From: a virus
Direction: 5' to 3' (one strand)
Length of the DNA stretch: 32,737 bases
IMG/VR virus record: IMGVR_UViG_3300037963_001839
Coordinates: 1-32,737 of that record
Below, one piece after another: positions 1,011 to 31,993 of this stretch (position 1 is its first letter; each line of letters begins with the position of its first letter). Under the pieces are notes generated by a model. It was not told the origin of the DNA. It worked only from the letters and a program-made list of their open reading frames with translations, and searched no databases. A program made the translations under genes and the position numbers.

Positions 1011-3749
1011 TTAGCTTTCTAAAGCTGTAATTCTTGCTTCTAGTGCATCAATCTTGTCATCTGCTTCTTGCAAGGCTTTAATTAATATTGGTACAAACAC
1101 AGAATATTTAACTGTTTTGACATCTTCTTCTTCATCAATTGTGACTAATGAAGGAAAAATAGTTTCTAGTTCTTGAGCGATTACTCCGATTTGTTTTAGA
1201 TCGTCACCAATAAAATTAAAATTTCTAACTCTTATTTGATTGATTTCGTTCAGCTTGTCTGTGGCATCAACAATGTTTTCTTTAAGGCTGACATCTGATA
1301 TCTGTCCGTAAGAGTTATTGGTATTTTGAACATCACCATCACCATAAACCCTGAACTCACCAGCATTTCCATATACATTCATCACATGGCTTCCACCAGT
1401 TACATCTTTAGAAAATTTGGGTCTACCATCAGCAAATAAACAGATTCCAAAATTAGAAGAATTAACTGTTGTATCACCCCGACCCACCAAGAAATTTCCA
1501 CCACTAGTAATTCTTGCTCTTTCAGAAGCATTAACTTTAAACTCCATTCTATCGCCACCATGAGAATAGGTTATTCCTCCAACATCGTTGTCATCAGCAT
1601 CAGCAAAATGGATTACACAATCATTATCATTTGCAGAACCCAAAGTTATTCTTGCGGCTGCATCATCTTCAAAGAAAGCAATCGTTCCCGCTCTTGGAGT
1701 AACACCCGAGCTTGCACTATCTACAACGTGCAAAGGTTCTACAGGACTTGAGGTGCCGATTCCAACATTCGCACCAGAGACAGTTATTCTGTCGGTAGTA
1801 CCTAGTGCTGAACCTTGAGATATTTTGAACTTATCTCCATCGGTATTATCTATACCAATTTCATAGTTTTCATATCCAGCTATGGTGAATCTTACTTTCG
1901 GATCACCAGCACCATTTTGAGTCGTTATGTCAAACAAAGAGTCATCACCAGCAGTTGTGCCGCTATTGCTTATTGTGCAATTTAAATCTTGACCATTTGT
2001 ACTATTGGAGACTCTAAATGCACTTGCACTTCCACTTGTATTTACGTCAAGCGTATATGAAGGACTTATGGTGCCGATTCCAAGTCTTTTATTCGGCAAA
2101 TCAAAAGCAGCAACATCTGCATTAGTTCCACCTGACCCACCATAAATTATAAATTTTCCGCCTGCGTTATATATTTCAGCGACATCGTTAGCTGTAGAGT
2201 CTTTTAATACTATGCCGGGATCACCACCTTCTACATATAAATACTTTGAAATTCCTGCAGCAGTTGCAGGAGTTGCACCAATTCCAACTTGGTTATTAAA
2301 GATAGCTGTTCCTGCATCTGACATATCAAGGGTAAGAGCTGTGATTGTTGACCCACCATCTTTCCCTTTAAATATTAAATCTCTATCATCTGCTCTTGAC
2401 ATAATTGTAAAATCAGTAGAGTCAGCAGATAACAATCCCCACTCAGTACCGCCATCTTTTAAGATTATGTCTTCTCCATCTGCATCAAGAATAATGTCGC
2501 CTGCAACATCTATTGTTAAGTTTCCACTTGTTTTCTCAATGTAATCCCCAAGAGTAAGCGGACCACCAGTTACTACACCACTATTGAAGGTAGCTTTACC
2601 TGCTTCGGACATATCTAAAGTAAGAGCAGTTATATCAGAACTACTGTCTGTACCTTTAAAGATAATGTCTTGATCTCCAGTTACAGCGTCAATATAGTTA
2701 TGTGAACCGTCGTGGTAAATCTCTAAGTCGTCCCCTGTACCTAGTTTTATCTTAGCGTTGTCTGGCATATCCAGATGGGAAGTCAAATCTAAAGTAGAGG
2801 ACATCTTCACATCGCCAACAATATCTACAGGCACAGACGGGCTCGCCGTACCCAAACCCACCCGCGAGTTTGCGTTATCGACTACAAAAGTAGGAGAATC
2901 GAAGGCAACGTCATTCGAGCCAACGGTCAAAGTGCCTGGCATCGTGATATTACCTGAGAGTTTTGCTGAAGTAACAGTACCATCGCTAGGAGTACCGATA
3001 TTGACGGGGTTGATAACATAGACAACTACCTTCCTACCCGTCGTAACGCCTGCAGACATTGTCAAAACGTTGTTAGAAATACTATATGAATCTTGGTTTT
3101 GGAATACACCCTCAATAAACACGATCAAATTATCTTCTGCCGCTGGTGTATCACTTAAAGTAAAAGCTGTTTGCCCGTTGGTTGCAGTAAATGTGTCTAC
3201 TGTCAAATTAGAGCTTTGTAGGTTGATAAGGTTATCTATGATAACCTCAAGTTTTAAACCATTCGATGGCGCAGCGTCAAACGTCAGTGTTGAACCACTG
3301 AACGAAAAAGTGTCATGGTGTTGCATGACACCATCTAAAAACACCATCGCATTATTCTCATTCTGCGGATTAGTACCAACATCATACGATGTCGCACTGC
3401 TTGCCGTTGTCGCGTTGTAGACTGTTTGGTTAGCTGACTTAGCCGCGATATTCTGTTGAATATCCGTTAGCAACGCAGCTGCAGCACGCAGTTGTACCGT
3501 ATCGCCTGACGAAAACGTTCTGGCAGTAGTGTTATCCGATGCACGGACCACGGTCCACGTTGTACCACTAACCGCTGTAACTTTGACTATTTCATTATTA
3601 GTGCCATCATCTATTGTGGCATAGAAGTACTCGCCCGCCCCTGGAGCAGGGAAGGTTGAGCTACTCGCCACACTAATACTTGTAGCACTTGTACTACTAA
3701 TCGCAGCAGAAAGAGTAGTGCTGGCGTTATTTGTAAACAGTACGCCCAC
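1011..3749 (-). CDS. Tail fibre/spike with C-terminal S74 intramolecular chaperone
   Basis: This 912-aa fibre starts at GTG with TAGGAG about 8 bases upstream. The N-terminal 100 residues are Ser/Thr/Ala-rich and probably attach to the tail. Residues about 105-260 hold two similar modules, with VFLDGVMQ and VFIEGVFQ as equivalent points. The middle is a long beta-rich stalk with repeated RVGLGTASPS / RLGIGTISPS / NVGIGTSSPV segments and two near-copies of an ITALTLDMS block. The last 95 residues match the peptidase S74 / endosialidase chaperone domain: SDVSLKENI at 818-826, IGVIAQELE, and a final coiled coil. The Ser818 and Lys823 spacing matches the known self-cleavage dyad, so release of the tail piece near Ser818 after trimer folding is expected. 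It probably binds the host receptor. Confidence 0.9.
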   Translation of the reverse strand: MGVLFTNNASTTLSAAISSTSATSISVASSSTFPAPGAGEYFYATIDDGTNNEIVKVTAVSGTTWTVVRASDNTTARTFSSGDTVQLRAAAALLTDIQQNIAAKSANQTVYNATTASSATSYDVGTNPQNENNAMVFLDGVMQHHDTFSFSGSTLTFDAAPSNGLKLEVIIDNLINLQSSNLTVDTFTATNGQTAFTLSDTPAAEDNLIVFIEGVFQNQDSYSISNNVLTMSAGVTTGRKVVVYVINPVNIGTPSDGTVTSAKLSGNITMPGTLTVGSNDVAFDSPTFVVDNANSRVGLGTASPSVPVDIVGDVKMSSTLDLTSHLDMPDNAKIKLGTGDDLEIYHDGSHNYIDAVTGDQDIIFKGTDSSSDITALTLDMSEAGKATFNSGVVTGGPLTLGDYIEKTSGNLTIDVAGDIILDADGEDIILKDGGTEWGLLSADSTDFTIMSRADDRDLIFKGKDGGSTITALTLDMSDAGTAIFNNQVGIGATPATAAGISKYLYVEGGDPGIVLKDSTANDVAEIYNAGGKFIIYGGSGGTNADVAAFDLPNKRLGIGTISPSYTLDVNTSGSASAFRVSNSTNGQDLNCTISNSGTTAGDDSLFDITTQNGAGDPKVRFTIAGYENYEIGIDNTDGDKFKISQGSALGTTDRITVSGANVGIGTSSPVEPLHVVDSASSGVTPRAGTIAFFEDDAAARITLGSANDNDCVIHFADADDNDVGGITYSHGGDRMEFKVNASERARITSGGNFLVGRGDTTVNSSNFGICLFADGRPKFSKDVTGGSHVMNVYGNAGEFRVYGDGDVQNTNNSYGQISDVSLKENIVDATDKLNEINQIRVRNFNFIGDDLKQIGVIAQELETIFPSLVTIDEEEDVKTVKYSVFVPILIKALQEADDKIDALEARITALES

Positions 3750-5618: not shown

Positions 5619-8600
5619 TTATAACCCAAGTAGTTCGCCAGCGCCAAGATCATAAAAAGGAAGGAAATCTTTACCACGGACTTTGCCGTTCATAAGTTTT
5701 TCTACACGCTCTGCTGTAGGACCAAGAGGTGGAACCCACCATTGTCCCCCATATTTACCAGCGTCTAACATAGGTATTATTAAACCAAATGCTCCTAACG
5801 CACCCGAACGGTCTATAATTTCTCCGGTATACTGAGGCCAAGTCATGTTATCAGAACGGAATACCGCTGGATCCATGCCCCTACCAAAATATTTAATTAG
5901 TTCTCTTATCTCTAAACCAAGCATAGTTAGAGGTAAAAGAGCTGTTGCTCCTAAAACTAAAGGTATAGCTGCAGATGTAAGTTTACCATCTTCAGAATAC
6001 CTATTGTTAGCTTCTCTAAGCGTACCGCCTATAATATTTTTACCGTATGCATAGAAAAACGATTTAAGCTGCCAGACTACAGCAAAATGTGGGCTAGAAG
6101 CCCAGCCTGGACGCTCAGCTGAATTTGGTCTCATTATAGATTCATCTACAAACCTTGCAATTGCAGCTCTTACTTTTTCGCCTTCCGCTGTTTCAAAGCT
6201 GCGCCCATTTTTTACCCATTTCTTTATATCTTCTCTTGTAATTTGAAGTTCTTCTAGGTGTCGGGTCGCAATGTCAGAGTTGTCTGCAGCTTTAGTAACC
6301 AAAAATTGTTCTCCCATTCCCGCAGCAAATACCCTTGTAAACTTAGTGTAAGCTTCTAGTCCTGTAGCAATAAAGAATTTTTCAGTGGCAAACTTACTCC
6401 AATCCCCCATAAACCCAAGTTCAGCTGCATTAAGATACATCGTATTAAGCGAGTCAAAACTAACTACACCTACGTCCCTAGCAAAAGCACGAGCTTGCTC
6501 TCTGTTATTAAAATACTTACGCATCTGTTGACCAAAAGTTTTTATTGCCCCAAAGTCTTTAGAACGTAGCACAGTTCCACCTAAATCTGGCAAAGAAGCA
6601 AGAGCCGCAAAGGTAAGCATAGTCACTACGTTAAACGCCAATATAAAATTATTAAGCTGACGAAGGGGTTTACTTTTGATCCCACCTACAACACCTAACA
6701 TAGAACGAACTGCATTTCTTGCTTTTGCTCGTTCTCTAGGATCAGCTATTCTATTAATATGAATTTCACTAGCTTGCCAACCGTTAAATTCTTGCCCAAC
6801 TTTTACATCAGACTTTAATAAAAAGCCTAATGGGTTATCAAGTTTTTCATTTGCTTTTAAATTAAGGTTTTTCTGACGTGTCTCTTTTGCAAGTTTTTTT
6901 GCATTATCAATATCTGCTTGAGTTACTTGTGCTGTAACCCGTTCTTTATAATCAATACGTTTAGTCATGTCCTGCACGTACGTAACTAAAGCTACATAAG
7001 GGTCTTGTAATACACCTATATCACGCAAATCTTTGTTAGGAATCTTAGTAAACACATCTGAACGCTCTTTTGCCATACCAAGAGACACTTCTGAAACTGT
7101 GTCTTGTGGGTCATCTGGGTTTCTTTCATTTTCTTGAAGCATTTTCTCCACATACGCTTCTGCTGCCTCCAAAGGCATTTTGTTATGTTTTACAATAACT
7201 GAAGCTAAAGCAGCCCGTTCTCCATTTTCATTATCTAACAACGCTTCCATATTAATAATACGAGGGTAAAAGTTTTCTCTAAATTTAATAAGGGGGTCTT
7301 TGCCTTCAATATTATCTTTATAAAAATCTTCTAAGAAACGCCTAACTTTTTTAGCTTCTGGAGACAACTGCCCGTAAGCTAAAGTGTCGTCCTCTGCTTC
7401 TTTTAAAGTTGCTTCCCATGCATCTATATCTGGCTCTCCGTTCTTTTTCTGGGGCGCCAATTTGCCAAGCTCATTTAATCGCATGTACATTAAAGATATA
7501 CGACCGTTTAATGTTCCAGTAGCAGCTTTTGACTGAGAAGGGTTATAAATCATATCTGCAAAAGCAGGATCTAGTCCTGCCCTAGTTAATACTCTTTTTA
7601 ATACGTTGTGGGCAGGTAAAAATAAATATTCAACGCCCCAGTGTCTTCTATCTGTAGGCAAAAGTTCTCCCATTGTCTTGAGAGTTTGCACCGCTTTATT
7701 TTTTATTCGGACACGTAGGGGCTTAGGCATGTAAGCATCATGCACACCGCTAGCGACATCATCTACCATGTCTCGTATTTCTATTTCTTGTTCTATCGAA
7801 ATAGGGTTTTTACTATCACGTATTGCTTCACTAAGTTCTGACACATAAGCATCAAAATCCATATTTAAAGTAAAACGTTTTTGCAAAAGTTGATCTAACT
7901 GCTTAAACACGCCTATTAGTTTTTTAGCTAAGCGTTTAAAGAAACTATCAACCGCGTTAGTCGCTTTTGTCGTTCCTTTAGGCCCCGCTTGCATTTCTTT
8001 AAGTAACCAAGTGCCCATTTGATCAGAAAACCATTCCTCAAAACCATACTTCCCTTCATATGCTACAGTTCCAACTCTTTTTTTATCTGCTTCAAAAGCT
8101 TTTTGTAGTCTTTGCCGCATATTTTTATTAACTACAGCGTTTTCAATTGCTTGGTTATATATCGAATGTCCTATCTCATGTCCCAAAGCTAACAAGGCTT
8201 TTTGTAGTTGTATGGGTGTAGCATTTTTAGGTAAGTTTATTAAAATAACCTCTGTGTCTGCAAACTTAATCCATTTACCATTTTTATTCCCTGCTTGCAT
8301 ATCAGTAGCCAACATTTTTAAAATATCGCTTGCTTTGTGTTCTTTTCCGTCAAATTTAAACTTGCCTCCAGCTTCTATATATCCTTCTCCTGCATTTAAC
8401 CTAATGCCTCCTTCCTTTAAAACCTGTTGTATACTCAAAACAGTTAAATTCCTACGACCAAAAAACTGTCTAGTTATGCCACCTAAAACAGGAATGATAC
8501 CTTTAAACACTGCTTCTATATCGTTACCAACAAAAGTTTTTTCTTTTGGTGTTGTTGCTTCTTTTTGCGAAGGTCCAAAAACAGTAGGAGAGCCTAGCCC

Positions 8601-11600
8601 CCGTTTCTCACGTCTTTCATCTCTCATTCTAAGATTTGTTTTAGTGATTGCTTCGCTTGCCTTACCTCCTTCGCGGAAATTATCATTCTCCATATAGACT
8701 TGTTGAGTATCTGGATCTATTTTAAGTCCAGCATATAAATAACCTTCTTGATCTAGTCTTTCTTCTGTTGCGGTTTTTTCAACGTCAATCTCCATACGAT
8801 CCGCTAAACCTTGATCCAAAAGCCTTGAGATAGTGCTATATACAGGGTTATCCATTAAAGAAGCAAAAGCATAAATAGCTTCTGCGTTATCTGCTTGCCA
8901 AAAGTTTCTTTGGTAAAGAGCTTTAACATTTTCGCTCGCTTTACTTATATCTCTATTTAAAGTTTCATTCGCTTTTTCAATTGCTGGGTTAGCCCTGTTT
9001 GCTTCTTGTTGAGAAATAGCAACATTTGCTCCTTTTGGTTTACCTTTACCTTCAACGTAATAATGGTTCTGTTTGACGCCTTTTTTCTCGCCAAGTTCTT
9101 TACCAATCATGTCAACGCCTATAGCCCCACCTGAGTGGTTTGTGTATCCAGAGTCAAGTCCACGTCTCTCAGCAACAAAAGCGCTTAAAGCTTCTGCGTG
9201 GTTTGGGCTTTGCTTGCTGTAATACAACAAAGTAGCATTATCCAAAGCTCCAGAATCAATTTGTTGTAGCACCCAGTTGCGTCTTTCCTGTTTAAAGTCG
9301 GTGTGGGCTGTACCTTCTAACCATGCTTTATATTGATCAACACTATCTTGTAAATTTTTAGTTTTTCTTGTGTCTCTAGTTTGTGTTTCAAGGTGACTAA
9401 AAGGATTACCATAGTGTTGTTCACCTTCTTTACGAAGAACATTTATACCTTTGCCCGCAGCCTCATCTGCTTTAACATTTTTAGATACAACAACGGTAGG
9501 GCCTGTGCCCACGCTATCAACTCCGCGATAAAGCGCTGCGATTTGGTTTCTTATTCGCTTATTAAAGGCTTCGTTTACGAAAATTTCTTTTGAAGGAACA
9601 CCCCTTATTTTTTCTAAAAGCTTAGGAAATTGGTTAGTCCAAAAATCTTTTTTCCCAGAGGGGTTGTTATGTGTAAGTTTAGCGTTGCCTGTTTTTTTAA
9701 GAAGAGCCATTGCTTCTGGGTTAGCAGCAAAAGAAGCCCGCATAAGTTTTTCCATTAGTTTTATGTTCCAGTCATTGTCTTTTTTCGGTTCGCCTTTTTT
9801 AAATACTTTACCTTGCTTCCACCTACTATCGTTATAGACTGTTTCATTAAACTGGCCAGTTTTCCAACTTTGATATGCATGTTCAACTGAATAGTACTGT
9901 TTACCATCTACATATTTAAATGGGCGTTTTGCAAAATTACTGAGAGACTCGAAAGTATTTTTGTCTGTAGACCATACATTAATAGTTGTAGGCGAAGTAA
10001 ATTTAGGCTCTGCGTCTCGCGTACCAATAATGGCATGGTCTTTTGTAAGGTCTGGTGCCTTTTTTAATTCTACAAAACCTTTTTTACCTGAAGGTAAATC
10101 TTCAGCAAACATGTCTTGTTGTTTACTAAGTGTTGTCCATTCATACCATTTACCCCCATCAAAAACATATACAGGTTTACCCATGTCAAGAGCCATTTGT
10201 ACAGCCCAACCCGTACCGCCGCTAACGACCTGCTGTGGCACAGTCTCTAAAAGTTCTCTTAATTCAAGGCTTGTTGGTACTGGGTCGCCTTCTTTAACGT
10301 CCATTCCAGCTTTATTCAAAGCTTCTGCTTGCCGCTTGCTAAGTCTACTAGGTTCTAATTTTTCGCCTCTATTACTTATCGCTTGGCTATAAGATACGTT
10401 TTTCTTTCCGTGTCTATACAAAGGTGTATTAACCCATCCATCAGATTGGTTTAAAGGCTTGCCAGCAAAATGTATTTTATATCCTTGTTCTGCCAACAAA
10501 TCTAAAGCTGTATCAAAAGCATCAGCTACATACCCCGCTTCCAAAGTATATTCTGTAGTCAAGCCTCGTCGTTCTTGGTTAACCTGCATTGCAAAATCAA
10601 TTAGAAAACTAATATCTACAGCCTGGTATTTTGTATCTTCCCCTGGTTTTTTGACAGACCAGCGTTCCGCAAGAGCAAATTTTCTTCGTTCAGCTATTCT
10701 GCGTCCAAAACCTTTATTAGATTCTCCTAAGTTTCTTTCTAAAGCAAAAGTAGAACCAATACCTTTTTGAACAATGTTTGAAAGTTCTGCTTGTACGCTA
10801 ATCGTTTCTGATTCAGGGGTTCTTTGTTTTACTATGCCCCACTCGTTGTTTTCGTTAAGCTCTAAACTGTATACTTCTGTAGGGTTGTCTTTAGATTCTT
10901 TAATAAAAGCCTGTAAGGCTTCATTTGGAACACTGTTGATTCTGCCAGTAGTTGCCATTCCAAATTCTTCTATTGTTTTAGAAACCCATGTTGTTCTTTC
11001 TTCCGGTCCTATAATGTCATAAAAATCTTCTTCTAAATTAATACGTGCCCTTCTTGCGGCTGCTTGTTCTTTTGGGTCTTTTATCGCTGCAATAATTGTA
11101 GACGAAGCGACTTGAGAAAAAGACATTGCGGCTTTTTGTTCGCGTCTACGTCTTTGTGCTGCTTGTCTTTCTCTACCAGGTCTTTCAGCGCTTTTTAATC
11201 TTTCTGTAACAATAGTTTGGCCATCGTCCGGGGCATCTTGAATGGTTACTCCTGGCCCAAACTCGTCGAGTACTGGATCTACTCTATCTACAATCTCGCC
11301 TGTTTCGGGGTCAATGTTTTCTTCGCCTTCAAATCCGCGAACCTCGGCTTCTATTTTTTTGTTCCTTGTGTTAACTACCTCTTCTTTAGTTTCCTGTTTA
11401 ACAGTGTAGCCTTCCTCAGCGATTTGTTTTGCGTACTCCTGTTCTAACTTTGCAAGGACTGATTGTTCTTCTTTAGGTTTAAAAGCTTCTTCGTTTGGAA
11501 TACTCTCTGCATGAATCTCGTTTCCATCTTTATCCCTAACTACAACTGCGTCTGTTTGAGACGCATCTTGTTCATAGGTGTACCCTAAATTTTTTCGCAG

Positions 11601-13196
11601 TTGTCCTTCACTAAAACCATTAGCTTGAAAATCATTAGCAAGTGCTTGGCTTTCTGAGTTACTTCTATCATAAATAAAAAACCCTGACCCATCAGGGTCT
11701 ACAACAAAATCTAGTTTAGCGGCTGTTTTATCATCAATAACGCCTTGTTTTTGCAGATTGTTAAGGATGGCCATAAAGTAGCCTGCTTTATCTGCAGCGG
11801 TTTCCGAACCTTGAAAAGGAACCCATACTCCTTTCTTAGGTTTACCAGGAGTTAGCATGTCTCTTGTTTGGGCGGTAAGATCTCTAAGCGACTCTTGTGG
11901 TAATTTAGAAGCTGCTGTAACTTTACCCGACTTTATAGCCTCAACTATGTCACTTGCCCCTTCTACATTACTTCTAGCCAAACCAATAACATTTGCTACA
12001 GCTGAAGTAGGAGCAGATCGAGCACCACCAGCCCAGAATCCAACAAAAGCAGATTCTGCTCTACGTAGGTTTGCGTCTTGTGAAGAATATTCTGGGTCAA
12101 TGGCCATTCTCTGACGAATCAACAATTCTTCTTGTCCAAGTTCTGTTAAACCTTCTTGAGTACCCCCTTGAAGCAGCCCCCCACCAAGACCACGGGCCAT
12201 TTCTTTCATGTAGTTACCAAACTTTTTATCGCCCGTTTTAACAAAATCTTTAGCTGCTCTTTTAAACAAAGCACCTACAAAAAGCTTTTCGCCTAAAGTA
12301 CCCAATACGGCTTGTGGTATACCTAAACCAAGGGCTGCTTTAGCTTCTTCTTTTGTTAATTTATACCCCGCTTCATCATATTCTGCTAACGCTTGAGAAG
12401 AACCTACCACATACTCCTGGCCAAAAGCACCTGCCCAAAAACCTACGTTTGCTGCTGGAAAATTAGCTATGGCTTGAACTGATGCAGGGCGTCCTAAGTT
12501 AGCGGCTTGTCCAGCTCTAGCTACATTTAAATAATTTACGTATTGTCCTGATTTTTTCGCTGTCTCATATGCCGCATCTAAAATGGCTTTTTCATTTACG
12601 TTTAATGCTGCTCCTTTACCTGCTTTATGTAGAGCATGTTTTTTAACAATGCTCGCCATCATGTCGTTTGTAACTTTCTTAGAAGCCGAAGATAATACTC
12701 CTTTACCTATAGTCGCAACGGCACCTCCAGCAAAGCCTGACGCAATAGAAGACACAGCCATAGGAGTAAACTGTCCTATGCCTTTTATGACTTGCTCAAA
12801 AAAACCTTCTACCGTAGGCTCCTCAACAAAAGCACTAAACTCTCCAAGGTCTCCTAAAATTTTGCCTGATGTTTGGCTTAATACTTCGGCTTGGTTTAGT
12901 CTTTTTTGTGCTTGCTCTTCGTCACCTTTTATGAGGTTGTAAATAGCACCAAACCTTTTTACATCTCCTTCAAGTTGTTGAGCCCCCGCCTCTGCTGCGG
13001 CACCAAAAGTTTCGCCTAGCGTATAACCCAGTTGCATGTCCTGCGGCGCAGGCGCATACGCTGCTTCTGTCGCTATTTGTGTTTCTCGTAGCATGTTTGC
13101 CACAGCGCTCTGTGGTTTCATTGCTTGTTCTGTAACTAATAAAGATTGGTTAAGAAGGCTTGCTACTGGGCTCGGCTTGCTTTTATTAACTGCCAC
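5619..13196 (-). CDS. Giant polyvalent virion protein with SLOG-like, NADAR, DUF4326-like and HEIGH peptidase domains
   Basis: About 2,525 aa from a GTG with AAGG upstream, two bases after the previous stop. An upstream in-frame TTG at 13223 overlaps that gene and has no clear Shine-Dalgarno. Order of segments: Ala/Gly-rich helical N-terminus (to about 420); charged linker; Rossmann/SLOG-like segment with VVSGGTGWAVQ at 990-1000 and KPVYVFD; NADAR (YbiA/DUF1768) domain about 1070-1198 with LSNF and SVEHAYQSWK (Glu1105); DUF4326-like domain about 1232-1344 with HYGNPFSH at 1261; second SLOG-like segment with HSGGAIGVD at 1354-1362; zinc-peptidase HEIGH at 1673-1677; helical C-terminal region with hydrophobic stretches near 2181-2206 and 2409-2431. 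Its position after the internal protein genes suggests packaging and ejection with the DNA, as proposed for phage polyvalent proteins. Individual enzymatic roles are inferred from motifs. Confidence 0.85.
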   Translation of the reverse strand: MAVNKSKPSPVASLLNQSLLVTEQAMKPQSAVANMLRETQIATEAAYAPAPQDMQLGYTLGETFGAAAEAGAQQLEGDVKRFGAIYNLIKGDEEQAQKRLNQAEVLSQTSGKILGDLGEFSAFVEEPTVEGFFEQVIKGIGQFTPMAVSSIASGFAGGAVATIGKGVLSSASKKVTNDMMASIVKKHALHKAGKGAALNVNEKAILDAAYETAKKSGQYVNYLNVARAGQAANLGRPASVQAIANFPAANVGFWAGAFGQEYVVGSSQALAEYDEAGYKLTKEEAKAALGLGIPQAVLGTLGEKLFVGALFKRAAKDFVKTGDKKFGNYMKEMARGLGGGLLQGGTQEGLTELGQEELLIRQRMAIDPEYSSQDANLRRAESAFVGFWAGGARSAPTSAVANVIGLARSNVEGASDIVEAIKSGKVTAASKLPQESLRDLTAQTRDMLTPGKPKKGVWVPFQGSETAADKAGYFMAILNNLQKQGVIDDKTAAKLDFVVDPDGSGFFIYDRSNSESQALANDFQANGFSEGQLRKNLGYTYEQDASQTDAVVVRDKDGNEIHAESIPNEEAFKPKEEQSVLAKLEQEYAKQIAEEGYTVKQETKEEVVNTRNKKIEAEVRGFEGEENIDPETGEIVDRVDPVLDEFGPGVTIQDAPDDGQTIVTERLKSAERPGRERQAAQRRRREQKAAMSFSQVASSTIIAAIKDPKEQAAARRARINLEEDFYDIIGPEERTTWVSKTIEEFGMATTGRINSVPNEALQAFIKESKDNPTEVYSLELNENNEWGIVKQRTPESETISVQAELSNIVQKGIGSTFALERNLGESNKGFGRRIAERRKFALAERWSVKKPGEDTKYQAVDISFLIDFAMQVNQERRGLTTEYTLEAGYVADAFDTALDLLAEQGYKIHFAGKPLNQSDGWVNTPLYRHGKKNVSYSQAISNRGEKLEPSRLSKRQAEALNKAGMDVKEGDPVPTSLELRELLETVPQQVVSGGTGWAVQMALDMGKPVYVFDGGKWYEWTTLSKQQDMFAEDLPSGKKGFVELKKAPDLTKDHAIIGTRDAEPKFTSPTTINVWSTDKNTFESLSNFAKRPFKYVDGKQYYSVEHAYQSWKTGQFNETVYNDSRWKQGKVFKKGEPKKDNDWNIKLMEKLMRASFAANPEAMALLKKTGNAKLTHNNPSGKKDFWTNQFPKLLEKIRGVPSKEIFVNEAFNKRIRNQIAALYRGVDSVGTGPTVVVSKNVKADEAAGKGINVLRKEGEQHYGNPFSHLETQTRDTRKTKNLQDSVDQYKAWLEGTAHTDFKQERRNWVLQQIDSGALDNATLLYYSKQSPNHAEALSAFVAERRGLDSGYTNHSGGAIGVDMIGKELGEKKGVKQNHYYVEGKGKPKGANVAISQQEANRANPAIEKANETLNRDISKASENVKALYQRNFWQADNAEAIYAFASLMDNPVYSTISRLLDQGLADRMEIDVEKTATEERLDQEGYLYAGLKIDPDTQQVYMENDNFREGGKASEAITKTNLRMRDERREKRGLGSPTVFGPSQKEATTPKEKTFVGNDIEAVFKGIIPVLGGITRQFFGRRNLTVLSIQQVLKEGGIRLNAGEGYIEAGGKFKFDGKEHKASDILKMLATDMQAGNKNGKWIKFADTEVILINLPKNATPIQLQKALLALGHEIGHSIYNQAIENAVVNKNMRQRLQKAFEADKKRVGTVAYEGKYGFEEWFSDQMGTWLLKEMQAGPKGTTKATNAVDSFFKRLAKKLIGVFKQLDQLLQKRFTLNMDFDAYVSELSEAIRDSKNPISIEQEIEIRDMVDDVASGVHDAYMPKPLRVRIKNKAVQTLKTMGELLPTDRRHWGVEYLFLPAHNVLKRVLTRAGLDPAFADMIYNPSQSKAATGTLNGRISLMYMRLNELGKLAPQKKNGEPDIDAWEATLKEAEDDTLAYGQLSPEAKKVRRFLEDFYKDNIEGKDPLIKFRENFYPRIINMEALLDNENGERAALASVIVKHNKMPLEAAEAYVEKMLQENERNPDDPQDTVSEVSLGMAKERSDVFTKIPNKDLRDIGVLQDPYVALVTYVQDMTKRIDYKERVTAQVTQADIDNAKKLAKETRQKNLNLKANEKLDNPLGFLLKSDVKVGQEFNGWQASEIHINRIADPRERAKARNAVRSMLGVVGGIKSKPLRQLNNFILAFNVVTMLTFAALASLPDLGGTVLRSKDFGAIKTFGQQMRKYFNNREQARAFARDVGVVSFDSLNTMYLNAAELGFMGDWSKFATEKFFIATGLEAYTKFTRVFAAGMGEQFLVTKAADNSDIATRHLEELQITREDIKKWVKNGRSFETAEGEKVRAAIARFVDESIMRPNSAERPGWASSPHFAVVWQLKSFFYAYGKNIIGGTLREANNRYSEDGKLTSAAIPLVLGATALLPLTMLGLEIRELIKYFGRGMDPAVFRSDNMTWPQYTGEIIDRSGALGAFGLIIPMLDAGKYGGQWWVPPLGPTAERVEKLMNGKVRGKDFLPFYDLGAGELLGL

Positions 13197-13197
13197 A

Positions 13198-15507
13198 CTA
13201 ACCTTGTCCTGCGTTTTGGGCAACTACCGCAGAAAAAATAGTAGCTGTCGCTTGTTTGCCAAGTTCAGTGGACATTTTATAAGTTGAAATTTTACTTCCT
13301 CGGCCATCTCTTGATTTAAAGTGGTCAATTTTACCGCCCTTCTCCAAATATTGTGGGTCTGTTATTTCTTTACCGTTTTCGTCATAAGCTGCCATATTCG
13401 GAAGAAGTGTATAAGCTCCAGTTGCAGGGTCTTGAGCAAACGTAGCAGTCAATATTTCTTTCCAAAGAGGCGCTTCAGCGTTGTCAATCATATAAGTATT
13501 AAAAATTTGCATTTGAATATTTGAGACTTGAGTAAGATCTTGTAAAAGCTCAGGAGTATACTTTCCTCCATTCTGTGCCACAGCTGTTGCGATTCTAGCC
13601 TGTTCTGCCATTATTAAAGGTGCTGCCTTTTTATAGTTACCTGCTTGGAAAAAAGTAAAACTGCCATCGTCTTCTTTTTCTTCAAACATCTCGGTTCTAA
13701 AATTGTTTCCTTCTGGGGTTAAAGAGCCAGCTCTGTCTTCTTGTTTATCATAATATTCTTGCCACTGTCTTTCAGAGTTGCTTCTAGAAGTTGCTGAATT
13801 TGCCTGATTTACTTTTAACGTTTCTCCTGCCAAAGACCACATTCCAGTTTCCAAAAACACAGGCATTGACTGAATCATTTGTTGATAAATTTTCCTATCC
13901 TCTCGAATAGAAGCTAAATAATTAATCATAACCGACGACCTATCTGTTTTAGACATTCTCATCATGTTGCCGTTATGTACTTGTGTGTTAAAGTCGACAA
14001 GCGCTTGTTCCTTTTCAGCTGAAAGTGTTTTAGCCTTATCTAACTCAGCTTCCAAAGCTTCTATGTCTTTATTTACAACTGCTTCAGCCGCTTTTGCTGG
14101 ATCTGCGTCTCCCACACCTTCGTTAAGTAAGTCTTTTTCTTCTTTTGGTATAGTTTTTCCAAAAAGGGTATTAGAGTCATTCATATATTTTTTAGAAAAA
14201 GCAACAGGGTCTGCATTAAACTCTGCTCTTGCTTCAGGGTTTGTTTTAAACACTTCGTCTAGTTTTTTCTTGTTTCCTGTATACCAAGCTTTTGCTTCTT
14301 GTACTTGTGTTTGCCCTCTTTCAGCCATTGCTCTTCTAAAAGCAGGTTCTGCTTCTAAGTGCATTGCGTTTAAAGTCTCAGCAGTTTGTTTTTTAGACAA
14401 CGCGTCTAATCTATTACGTTCGTTTGGGCTAAGGCTAAGGTATTGCTCCTCGGTTAAATTTTTAGGTTTAAGTCCAGGTGTTTCAAGGTATCCGTCTTTT
14501 TGTTGTATCGGAGAAGGTCTCATAGTAACAACCCTACCCTGCGATTGTAGTCTGCCTTCTGTGTTTTCATTGAAAAGCAAACCAGCAAGCTCTTCTCCCA
14601 TAGGCAAAGAGCCATCTTCTTTTATACCGTACCCAGCACCATAATTAACTACATTATCTTCAATTGGTGTTGGATCGGCTTTAGCCGTTTCTAAAGCTGC
14701 TTCGGCTGCAGTTACGCCTTCTTGTGCTGCGGTTGCTTCGCCTTCAAGTATTTTTAAGCGTTCTTGTCTAGAAACCCCCTCATTAAAAAGATTTGCTTCA
14801 CTTTCATTAAAAAAACGAAGGTTTGTGTCAATGCCTGCTTGATCCGCTTTTGTTTTTTTATAAACCCGCATAAGATCATCTATTTTTGATAGAGGAATAG
14901 CGCCTACCGCTTCTAAGTCTACAGCTTCTGCTCCACCTTCTGCGGCTATTTCGTTTTCATCTCTGCCACTAGTTGTCATGTTATTTGTACGAATATTTCC
15001 GGTTTCAGGGTCAACTGTTCTAACTTTTGGAATAATAAAAATTTCGCCGTTTTCATCTTTGTATAGTGTTGAGTTTGTCTCATCTAACCTTTTTCCAGGC
15101 CCTAAAAACTCGCTTGCCATCCCACTTAAATTTACATAATCATAAAATTTATCTTCGCCCAAAAGTGCAAAAATATCTGTGGCTTTCATGCCGTACGTCC
15201 CTTCATCCACTTCTTGTCGCCTATAAAAATCCTCTGCATAAGATTTAAAATCGTCGCTAAGAGACATATCTTCTGGTTTTGCGTTTGGGTCTTTACTTAT
15301 CCAGGCACTAGTCTGCTCTTTAGTATGTTGTCCAGTACGAAGATTTTGTTCTAGTTGGTTTAAAGCCATTTGTTCAATTTCAAAAGTGTCACGAAAGGCT
15401 CGCTCTGCTGCTTGTTGTTCTTGCTCTCTGTTATCCAAAATAATAGCAAGATCCGTCGCATCATTACGCGGGTTCATTTGGTTAGCAATGTTATCGAATA
15501 ATCCCAT
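13198..15507 (-). CDS. Large helical internal/ejected virion protein
   Basis: This 769-aa protein begins MGLFDNIANQMNPRNDATDL. It is largely alpha-helical and rich in Ala, Glu, Gln and Lys. Heptad-like runs near residues 245-275 and 490-520 suggest coiled coils. There are no Cys clusters, signal peptide or clear membrane segments, and no catalytic motif I can name. The ATG follows the previous stop by only two bases with no strong Shine-Dalgarno, so translational coupling is likely. In podoviruses the genes between the adaptors and the fibres at this point code for internal core proteins that are ejected into the cell; that role is inferred from order and size. I do not recognise a family by sequence. 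Confidence 0.7.
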   Translation of the reverse strand: MGLFDNIANQMNPRNDATDLAIILDNREQEQQAAERAFRDTFEIEQMALNQLEQNLRTGQHTKEQTSAWISKDPNAKPEDMSLSDDFKSYAEDFYRRQEVDEGTYGMKATDIFALLGEDKFYDYVNLSGMASEFLGPGKRLDETNSTLYKDENGEIFIIPKVRTVDPETGNIRTNNMTTSGRDENEIAAEGGAEAVDLEAVGAIPLSKIDDLMRVYKKTKADQAGIDTNLRFFNESEANLFNEGVSRQERLKILEGEATAAQEGVTAAEAALETAKADPTPIEDNVVNYGAGYGIKEDGSLPMGEELAGLLFNENTEGRLQSQGRVVTMRPSPIQQKDGYLETPGLKPKNLTEEQYLSLSPNERNRLDALSKKQTAETLNAMHLEAEPAFRRAMAERGQTQVQEAKAWYTGNKKKLDEVFKTNPEARAEFNADPVAFSKKYMNDSNTLFGKTIPKEEKDLLNEGVGDADPAKAAEAVVNKDIEALEAELDKAKTLSAEKEQALVDFNTQVHNGNMMRMSKTDRSSVMINYLASIREDRKIYQQMIQSMPVFLETGMWSLAGETLKVNQANSATSRSNSERQWQEYYDKQEDRAGSLTPEGNNFRTEMFEEKEDDGSFTFFQAGNYKKAAPLIMAEQARIATAVAQNGGKYTPELLQDLTQVSNIQMQIFNTYMIDNAEAPLWKEILTATFAQDPATGAYTLLPNMAAYDENGKEITDPQYLEKGGKIDHFKSRDGRGSKISTYKMSTELGKQATATIFSAVVAQNAGQG

Positions 15508-26384: not shown

Positions 26385-26858
26385 TTAAAAGTCTTCTTTT
26401 TTAGCAATTATATTCTTACACCACCAATAAAATTCGCTTTCTCCGAGAGTATGCTTCATTACATTTACACGAAAGGCCACTAATTGTATGTTTTCGGGTA
26501 CATATCCTTTATTGGGGTCTTTTCTATCAATGCTAACGTTAAAATTTTGAGATCCTTCGCCCGATTGCCACGTTAAATACACACCAGATAACGCACATTT
26601 ACCCTCTTGGTGGTCCCATAACTCGTACAGTTGTTCAATTTCAAGGTTCCAGGTTAACGGTTCACGTTCCTTGGCTCGGGCGTACTTCAATTTGGAATAA
26701 ATCTTTTTTAAATACGCGTACGGAGAATAACTAGATCTAGCCGTACGTTGTGCATTTTCACATGTTCGGCATGTAGCTCGTTTGTTCCCGCTCTTCGTCT
26801 TGTTGTACTCGTCCGAAGGTAAGTCCCTTTTACATTTTGCGCAAATTTTTTTCGGCAA
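26385..26858 (-). CDS. HNH-type nuclease with zinc ribbon, upstream of terminase
   Basis: This 157-aa protein begins at TTG with AGGAAA about 8 bases upstream. A zinc-binding N-terminus (C6, C9, C30, C33) precedes a basic helical linker and an HNH-like core: EGKCALSG around C88, SIDRKDPNKGYVPENIQLV at 109-127 with D111/R112, then FRVNVMKH with N132 and H136. The family cuts DNA with a single metal ion. HNH proteins next to terminase genes are known to support cos cleavage in some phages; here it is the first gene of the late operon. It could also be a free-standing homing nuclease, but no interrupted gene is nearby. Confidence 0.8.
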   Translation of the reverse strand: MPKKICAKCKRDLPSDEYNKTKSGNKRATCRTCENAQRTARSSYSPYAYLKKIYSKLKYARAKEREPLTWNLEIEQLYELWDHQEGKCALSGVYLTWQSGEGSQNFNVSIDRKDPNKGYVPENIQLVAFRVNVMKHTLGESEFYWWCKNIIAKKEDF

Positions 26859-27874: not shown

Positions 27875-28465
27875 ATGCATTCTACTCTTATCAATCGCAA
27901 CGGCTCAGTTCTTAAACGGACTGGGCTGTTGTGTCACCCTTTCGATAAACAGTTCGGAGATCTTCTAGACATTAGTCGGGAGTACCGAGAGCTAGAGTTC
28001 GGAAGGTACACTAGTTTCTTTGGGCTTGATGGTGCTAACTACAAGTACTCTGGCAAGAATCACCTTGCTAGACCTATGCCGTTAGTACTATCATCATTCA
28101 GAGATCTAGCCCTAGAACGCGCGTACTACTCAGGCTTTCTGAAAAACGCGCCACTAATTGACCTCTTCAACCACATTCTTCTCAACGAATACGAAGAAGG
28201 TCAAAAACTAAATGCACACAAAGACGACGAACCCGACCTCATCGGACCAATTGTCAGCATTAGTTTAGGTGCACCTGCAAACTTCAACTACGGAGTTAAT
28301 CGCAACTGCACTACGTCTACGCTCTTAGAGCACGGTGATATTCTCATTGGAAACAAACATTTCTTTGATAACTACTATCATTCAGTCTCAGAGCCACAGG
28401 ACGGAGTAAGGATCAACCTTACTTTTAGAACTGTTAAGGACACGATCTCTTCAAAGAGATCGTGA
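27875..28465 (+). CDS. AlkB-like 2-oxoglutarate/Fe(II) dioxygenase
   Basis: 196 aa with the AlkB-family pattern: NEYEEGQKLNAHKDDEPDL with N104, Y106, and the iron ligands H115 and D117; GPIVSISLGAPANF; GDILIGN; the third ligand H169 in NYYHSV; and RINLTFR with R179 and R185 for 2-oxoglutarate and the core strand. The family oxidatively removes alkyl groups from nucleic acids. The first 60 residues are less typical. Role here is probably repair or modification of phage DNA or RNA; the substrate cannot be told from sequence. Its last codons form part of the next regulatory hairpin. Confidence 0.88.
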   Translation: MHSTLINRNGSVLKRTGLLCHPFDKQFGDLLDISREYRELEFGRYTSFFGLDGANYKYSGKNHLARPMPLVLSSFRDLALERAYYSGFLKNAPLIDLFNHILLNEYEEGQKLNAHKDDEPDLIGPIVSISLGAPANFNYGVNRNCTTSTLLEHGDILIGNKHFFDNYYHSVSEPQDGVRINLTFRTVKDTISSKRS

Positions 28466-30949: not shown

Positions 30950-31993
30950 ATGCATCAAATACGTCCAAAGCATCTCGTTTCAGAGATTGTTGATAACATG
31001 CGTGCCGGTCTTAACACCATGATTTGGGGTGGACCAGGTATCGGTAAATCAGAAATACCAGAACAAGTCGCCACGAGCCTTGGTCAAAAGTTGTTAGACT
31101 TTCGTGCGAACTTGTTTGATCCTGTTGACGTTCGTGGTGTCCCACGAGTTGTCAAAGTTAAGGATCAAGACAAATATTTTACATCGTGGGCTGTCCCAGA
31201 TGTATTTCCAATTGTGGAGCGAGATGGTGAGCGTGGCTTATTCTTCATTGATGAATTGCCAACGGCGCCGCCTGCAACACAAAATGCGTTCCTGCAGTTA
31301 TTATTAACCAGAAAGGTTGGGGATTATCATCTACCGCATGGCTGGTCTATCATAGCTGCAGGTAACCGTTTGACAGATTCTGCTGCTGTCTACCAAATGC
31401 CATCACCTGTCAGAAACAGGTTAGCTCATTATGAGTTAGAACCTAATGTTGATGACTGGTGTGATTGGGCAATTGGCAATGGCATCAGCGATTCGCTTAT
31501 CTCATTTATGAGATATCGCCCTGGGCTGTTGTATTCATTTGACGCCGACCACTACTCTTTTCCTACTCCTAGGAGCTGGGCGTTAGTGGATAAGAAGTTG
31601 AAGATAAACAACAATGAAGAGACATTGTTTTACGGTGTGTCTGCATTAGTTGGCGATGGCCCAGCAGGTGAGTATGTAGCATTTAGAAAAATTGCTGACT
31701 CACTCCCTGATATTGACAATTTGATTGAGAATCCACAGAAATACAAACATGATTCTGATCCAGCTATCTTGTATGCCCTCACAGGTGCTTTGGCAGCTAG
31801 GGCAACCGAAGACAAGATAGCTAATATTATGCGTATTGGCGACAAGTTGGAAACCGAATATCAAGTTGTTCTTGTCAAACAGTCAATTCAACACGACAAG
31901 GCTAGGGCTAACTCAAGTCCAAATTATAAACCTATTATTGATTCTCCTTCTATACAGAAATGGATCAATGATAATTCAAATGTAATCTTATAA
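30950..31993 (+). CDS. MoxR-type AAA+ ATPase
   Basis: 347 aa with Walker A GGPGIGKS at 27-34, Walker B LFFIDE at 97-102, sensor-1 IIAAGN with N139 and arginines R155/R157 in PSPVRNRLAHYEL, the usual MoxR order. The C-terminal 150 residues form a helical lid (DDWCDWAIGNG, YSFPTPRSWALVD). MoxR-like proteins act as chaperones or remodellers, usually with a von Willebrand A partner encoded next to them; such a gene may lie beyond the window. AGGAG occurs about 13 and AGGAG again 5 bases before the ATG. A weak CCTTGG-like leader (TATTGGCTG at 30915) precedes it. Confidence 0.88.
   Translation: MHQIRPKHLVSEIVDNMRAGLNTMIWGGPGIGKSEIPEQVATSLGQKLLDFRANLFDPVDVRGVPRVVKVKDQDKYFTSWAVPDVFPIVERDGERGLFFIDELPTAPPATQNAFLQLLLTRKVGDYHLPHGWSIIAAGNRLTDSAAVYQMPSPVRNRLAHYELEPNVDDWCDWAIGNGISDSLISFMRYRPGLLYSFDADHYSFPTPRSWALVDKKLKINNNEETLFYGVSALVGDGPAGEYVAFRKIADSLPDIDNLIENPQKYKHDSDPAILYALTGALAARATEDKIANIMRIGDKLETEYQVVLVKQSIQHDKARANSSPNYKPIIDSPSIQKWINDNSNVIL

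Follow-up and report, generated by a model that had tools for sequence, protein, structure and literature searches.

Proteins in which DUF4326 is fused with SLOG, Macro and NADAR domains have been described in phages and giant viruses, and the removal of ADP-ribose-derived signals has been proposed as their function (PMC7824862, PMC9503650). DUF4326 itself has been placed in the rhodanese-phosphatase group (PMC9503650). The functional residues of NADAR domains comprise a Glu, a Lys seven residues further on, and a Glu, Asp or, in phages, His of the last strand; Asp at this last position is found in NADARs linked to DarT1, and His characterizes the phage type (PMC11543638). The gp30.3-type NADAR of a phage frees guanine of ADP-ribose in vitro and does not rescue cells from DarT1 (PMC11125620). 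Finally, polyvalent proteins with zincin peptidases have been defined as injected effectors (PMC5512222).

The protein described here carries the same three domain types as the SLOG/NADAR/DUF4326 fusions, with the same proposed role, and is encoded in a 32.7 kb virus record (the whole stretch of DNA analysed, hereafter the window) in which terminase, portal, major head protein and other structural genes share the strand of one giant open reading frame. Within this phage protein, of the polyvalent type, the three domains probably constitute one composite unit of cargo, in which a single cpYpsA-like SLOG has been re-permuted around NADAR and a DUF4326-like domain. Two features set this unit apart from the published fusions (PMC9503650, PMC7824862), for which no report was found of a SLOG interrupted or permuted by the other two domains, and from which the window also differs in having a DUF4326-like domain without cysteines. 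The re-permuted SLOG enclosing NADAR and DUF4326 is new and rests on one metagenomic contig; no report of a permuted SLOG with this arrangement was found in the open-library literature, which is not proof of absence.

A giant virion-type protein and its variable stretch

The features of the giant protein, all encoded on the minus strand, are as follows.

5619..13223, minus: giant protein of 2534 aa, polyvalent-type virion protein (open reading frame and C-terminal PHROG matches)
10008..10235, minus: C-terminal part of SLOG, placed first, residues 997-1072 (model nodes 108-168, i-E 5e-18)
9597..9989, minus: NADAR domain of the phage type, residues 1079-1209 (fold, profile and YbiA sequence matches)
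9171..9470, minus: DUF4326-like domain of a cysteine-less clade, residues 1252-1351 (profile, and identity to two related giants, L057 and L062)
8847..9152, minus: N-terminal part of SLOG, placed last, residues 1358-1459 (model nodes 7-108, i-E 5e-27)
7890..8360, minus: zincin-like metallopeptidase region, residues 1622-1778, HEIGH at 1682 (conserved in most relatives)
5943..6722, minus: conserved virion-structural C-terminal region, residues 2168-2427 (PHROG 30152, E 5.5e-21)

The TTG with which the protein begins is the mechanical start of the frame, and a later ATG is possible. A first-pass annotation of this DNA had placed five motifs within one giant protein, and all five do lie in a single open frame at the positions claimed: VVSGGTGWAVQ at residue 999 (base 10229), LSNF at 1094, SVEHAYQ at 1112, HYGNPFSH at 1270 and HSGGAIGVD at 1363 (base 9137). 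As sequence matches, these motifs are far above chance. Profiles made from relatives, with seeds that included the window sequence, match the giant protein with E-values of 6e-18 for the SLOG C part, 9.5e-49 for NADAR, 1e-39 for DUF4326 and 2e-29 for the SLOG N part.

Relatives of the giant protein's C-terminus are encoded by 58 IMG/VR loci. An N-terminal region, an HExxH region and the C-terminus are common to the giant relatives, and the stretch between them varies; two cassette-free members (L016 and L037) align with the giant up to approximately residue 955 and again from approximately 1550-1570. As in polyvalent proteins, several unlike domains and a zincin-like peptidase are combined in one large protein, and with its zincin, its structural C-terminus and its neighborhood of head and tail genes the giant looks like a virion-packaged polyvalent protein. 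Packaging is likewise suggested by the PHROG structural C-terminus, by a homologue in KPP25 (approximately 2009 residues, calculated from coordinates) that is annotated as virion structural, by the polyvalent-type zincin, and by the presence of a SLOG on the virion RNA polymerase of phage Pylas. The likeness to the described polyvalent proteins (PMC5512222) thus extends to size, multidomain composition, zincin peptidase and virion-type region; the differences are that the text of that report does not mention NADAR and SLOG by name, and that packaging of the giant is a prediction, made from the structural annotation of homologues. In Klebsiella phage Pylas (L002, 6001-6477), an intact cpYpsA-like SLOG lies within the N4-type virion RNA polymerase.

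One SLOG domain in two exchanged halves

Intact SLOG relatives of phages form a family that is cpYpsA-like and hence already permuted, with the FAGIGTR strand and its helix at the C-terminus. Members match Pfam cpYpsA ('circularly permutated YpsA SLOG family', PF12694) weakly, and a profile search of PDB sequences using the SLOG alignment gave no match. The model of one intact member (from L064; pLDDT 95.6) has 3imk as its top fold match (Z 13.0, 3.4 A, 138 aligned). The likeness to cpYpsA (PF12694; 3imk) lies in the fold of the intact relatives (Z 13.0), in weak sequence matches and in the C-terminal IGTR strand. In the window, by contrast, the chain bears a further cut in front of the GGT helix, and NADAR-DUF4326 takes the place of the last helix; since the family is already permuted, this second cut makes the window SLOG a second permutation.

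The evidence for a single domain comes from a full SLOG model of 187 nodes, constructed from 60 intact phage SLOGs. The part placed first, which holds the GGT helix, the KPVYVF strand, the W strand and the IGTR strand, and the part placed last, which holds the SGGAxGxD and RNxxQ motifs, abut at node 108 without overlapping or leaving a gap, and a search with the same model found no further SLOG remnant in the giant protein. The DprA-like profile PHROG 768 (191 positions) divides correspondingly, with the first segment matching 142-175 and the second 32-121. Two SLOG-like segments had been counted in the first-pass annotation; because the segments cover complementary node ranges (108-168, then 7-108) and no other remnant exists, they are halves of the same SLOG, and two SLOG domains are rejected on the basis of model coverage. 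Approximately 285 residues holding NADAR and the DUF4326-like domain separate the halves, and the last helix of SLOG is missing. With high confidence, therefore, this contig carries a single swapped SLOG, subject to the correctness of the assembly. Annotation based on motifs can evidently count one permuted domain twice.

The motifs SGGAxGxD, RNxxQ, GGT and IGTR are all present across the two halves, in an order that departs from the standard cpYpsA order of SGGA half, GGT half, and IGTR strand with helix in one stretch. Of 40 columns that at least 85% of the family conserves, the window retains 32 across its two SLOG halves, compared with 32-40 in intact members; SGGAxGxD, RNxxQ, GGT and, in the last strand, G-T-R are among those retained (the tally was made by hand, with spurious columns omitted). 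This conservation is counted as support for the suggestion that both halves are under selection. The C half scores 63 bits, ranking 149 of 161 and below most intact members, and the invariant Gly preceding IGTR is replaced by Ile. Ranked by their similarity to relatives, the two halves show no correlation; the C half is short, and the comparison is uninformative as to a shared ancestry of the halves.

The window order is, to date, seen in one contig only. SLOG loci were collected separately with each half, so that the search favored neither order, and each of the 116 distinct intact domains so obtained has its halves adjacent and normally ordered, as in Pylas, cr113_1, L056 and L064. Close relatives of the SLOG-NADAR-DUF4326 cassette were found neither in a direct scan of IMG/VR nor in plasmids, and a scan of GTDB genomes yielded one ordinary intact SLOG. 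Separate SLOG halves in crAss-like genes were rejected as candidates: these genes are TAG-recoded, and the order is normal once TAG is read as Gln. Permutation does recur. In a second permuted case (L079/L185, one contig), itself new, residues 1440-1618 of the giant open reading frame match SLOG nodes 146-184 and then directly 7-143, with a DUF4326-like domain directly after them; this SLOG begins with its IGSR strand and helix, an arrangement that departs from the window order as well as from the one usual in the family.

An AlphaFold model of residues 975-1490 (mean pLDDT 72.3, pTM 0.59; the five models range from 52 to 72) is consistent with this analysis. The underlying alignment was shallow, with 26 rows of which 5 are the window sequence, and was kept small because MAFFT misplaced large sets of single-domain fragments. 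The SLOG elements, mostly at pLDDT 80-94, correspond one-to-one with those of the intact SLOG model except for the last helix. Numerous Rossmann chains can be aligned from model positions 25-35 to 472-475 using only approximately 100-135 residues, and consequently use both halves and skip the middle; their Z values of 3-4 are uninformative alone by the yardstick of the tool. A further match, spanning model positions 86 to 484 (109 residues, 3.4 A), is 8e6v, the human TRPM2 MHR1/2, which we take to be a SLOG. That 3imk and other SLOG structures are absent near the top of a Foldseek search is not evidence against a SLOG fold, as Foldseek aligns sequentially and the chain is permuted. The two halves probably fold jointly, although the spanning Z values are weak.

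The enclosed NADAR and DUF4326-like domains

The NADAR domain, proposed previously from motifs, is confirmed by fold and by sequence. Fold comparison (VIA) matched the NADAR-ADP-ribose structure 8bau (Z 10.4, 3.3 A, 128 aligned) and YbiA (Z 10.1, 5.2 A, 133 aligned), the latter also being matched by sequence; PHROG 1017, a profile spanning the NADAR region, gave E 2.8e-11, and Pfam NADAR gave 25.8 bits, below its curated cut-off of 35.1. Glu1114 and Lys1121 are kept, with SVEHAYQSWK aligned to TSEHYFQAQK of YbiA, and His1185 in AKLTHN aligns with the Glu of AKLVEH in YbiA. Fold, Glu and Lys are thus as in the DarT1-linked NADAR antitoxin (PMC11543638), which differs in having Asp where the window has His; in addition, no DarT gene was identified adjacent to the window NADAR, nor was any DarT-like gene identified among the annotated open reading frames of the window, a contig that may be a fragment. 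The catalytic Glu and Lys and the last-strand His are instead shared with the gp30.3-type NADAR of phages, a free early protein, whereas the window NADAR is embedded in a giant virion-type protein. The connection to DarT drawn in the first-pass annotation is weakened by the His, by the lack of an identified DarT-like gene and by the failure of the gp30.3 type, active on guanine-ADP-ribose in vitro, to rescue cells.

In other giant open reading frames of the same chassis (L022, L026-L029, L033, L034, L042-L044), NADAR is nested within the zincin-like region (e.g., 1824-1976 in L022), and matches to the zincin model flank the nested NADAR on both sides.

The second enclosed domain, likewise correctly anticipated from its motif, belongs to a clade without the CxC..CHG cysteines (clade profile E 1e-39). 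It is 69% identical to the corresponding domain of two related giants (L057/L062), scores 17.7 bits against Pfam DUF4326 (PF14216; cut-off 25; E 0.0059), and carries the GNP/ANP/HNP motif as GNPF at 1272. Five DUF4326 members fetched from cellular genomes carry CxC..CHG; the window has YYS..NHA in its place, and cysteines at this site are absent in every relative that covers the motif. The domain is called DUF4326-like because CxC..CHG is missing, and this cysteine-less clade in phage giants is new. Given both the missing cysteines and the rhodanese-phosphatase grouping, a cysteine-dependent reaction is unlikely, and we infer binding as the preferred role over cysteine catalysis. Outside phages, a NADAR-DUF4326 fusion with CxC..CHGD intact was observed in a cellular genome (L230, a 183-aa open reading frame from approximately base 1300).

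Origin and possible role of the unit

As the unit is presently pictured, the SLOG chain would start just before the GGT helix and continue along the edge of the sheet into the IGTR strand; where a helix normally follows that strand, it would leave SLOG as the approximately 285 residues of NADAR and the DUF4326-like domain, and the SGGAxGxD half would re-enter last and complete the sheet. The swapped order would result equally from a tandem duplication whose two outer parts were then lost and from a copy that circularized and was inserted again, and the data are compatible with either. A 10-nt match, GGCAAGCAGA, occurs near both SLOG break points (approximately residues 964-968 and 1442-1446) and may reflect microhomology or chance; with a chance expectation estimated at approximately 0.03, it was given little weight.

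A different history, in which two SLOGs once flanked NADAR-DUF4326 and decayed separately, the first losing its N half and the second its C half so that neither would work, draws on relatives that have a full SLOG at either of the required junctions: DUF4326 precedes a full SLOG in L064, L068 and L127 (with a linker RRGxxS common to the window and L163, of the L064 contig), and a full SLOG precedes NADAR in cr130_1. These junctions count equally in favor of the single re-permuted SLOG. The nearest relatives of the two halves are, moreover, not clearly common, and the C half scores below average. Two independent losses would nevertheless rarely leave halves that meet exactly at node 108, each half retains conserved residues, and no SLOG remnant lies outside them, leaving this history unlikely. 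An assembly chimera, in which reads from two phage variants differing in the order of their cargo were joined, is very improbable. The evidence is a single metagenomic contig and cargo order is highly variable among relatives, but the frame is uninterrupted across either break point, G+C at third positions stays uniform (0.22-0.28) over the length of the giant protein, and the break points coincide to the residue within SLOG.

For a single re-permuted SLOG enclosing the other two domains, the most likely role in infection would be the following. The giant protein would be packaged in the virion and enter the cell with the DNA. There, the SLOG part would bind, and perhaps cleave, an ADP-ribose-derived nucleotide; NADAR would act on ADP-ribose adducts, guanine-ADP-ribose for example, by hydrolyzing their N-glycosidic bonds; the cysteine-less DUF4326-like domain would bind nucleotide or phosphate without cysteine catalysis; and jointly the three would reduce, at an early stage of infection, the signals or marks that the host derives from NAD. 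A role against NAD-derived defence is plausible and not new, as the functional idea of the first-pass annotation restates a hypothesis already published (PMC7824862, PMC9503650). The packaged counter-defence kit that it described is borne out insofar as the domains occur together in a polyvalent-type protein and agree with that proposal, and has to be amended to one SLOG in place of two.

Salvage or repair early in infection, directed for example at damaged NAD, riboflavin intermediates or by-products of RNA repair, appears a rather doubtful alternative to counter-defence. NADAR proteins do clear riboflavin intermediates and have been linked to RNA repair (PMC9503650), and an AlkB-like repair gene lies within the window; packaging with the DNA, however, suits an immediate task better, and the published co-occurrence analysis favors immune-signal removal.

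More tentatively, the twice-permuted SLOG of the counter-defence unit may serve as a scaffold. With NADAR and the DUF4326-like domain inserted after the nucleotide-contacting first strand, the three sites could be arranged face to face, handing a single substrate from one to the next, and should the zincin cleave the connecting region, the unit could still be held together by the fold.

Apart from this scaffold reading, the giant protein indicates that phage cargo proteins re-thread domains and not only string them, with an already permuted fold cut again and two ADP-ribose-handling domains built in; if the three sites work together, NAD-based immunity of bacteria would be countered by a compact device that lends itself to testing.

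Several other genes of the window were also recognized. These encode an AlkB-like 2OG-Fe(II) oxygenase, a predicted alkylation-repair enzyme (27875-28465, plus strand; PF13532, E 8.9e-17), an ATPase, probably of the AAA/MoxR type (30950-31993, plus; PHROG 1297, E 1.2e-87), a tail protein with a C-terminal S74 endosialidase-type chaperone domain (1011-3749, minus), and an Endonuclease VII-like product whose gene (26385-26858, minus) lies directly upstream of the terminase genes.
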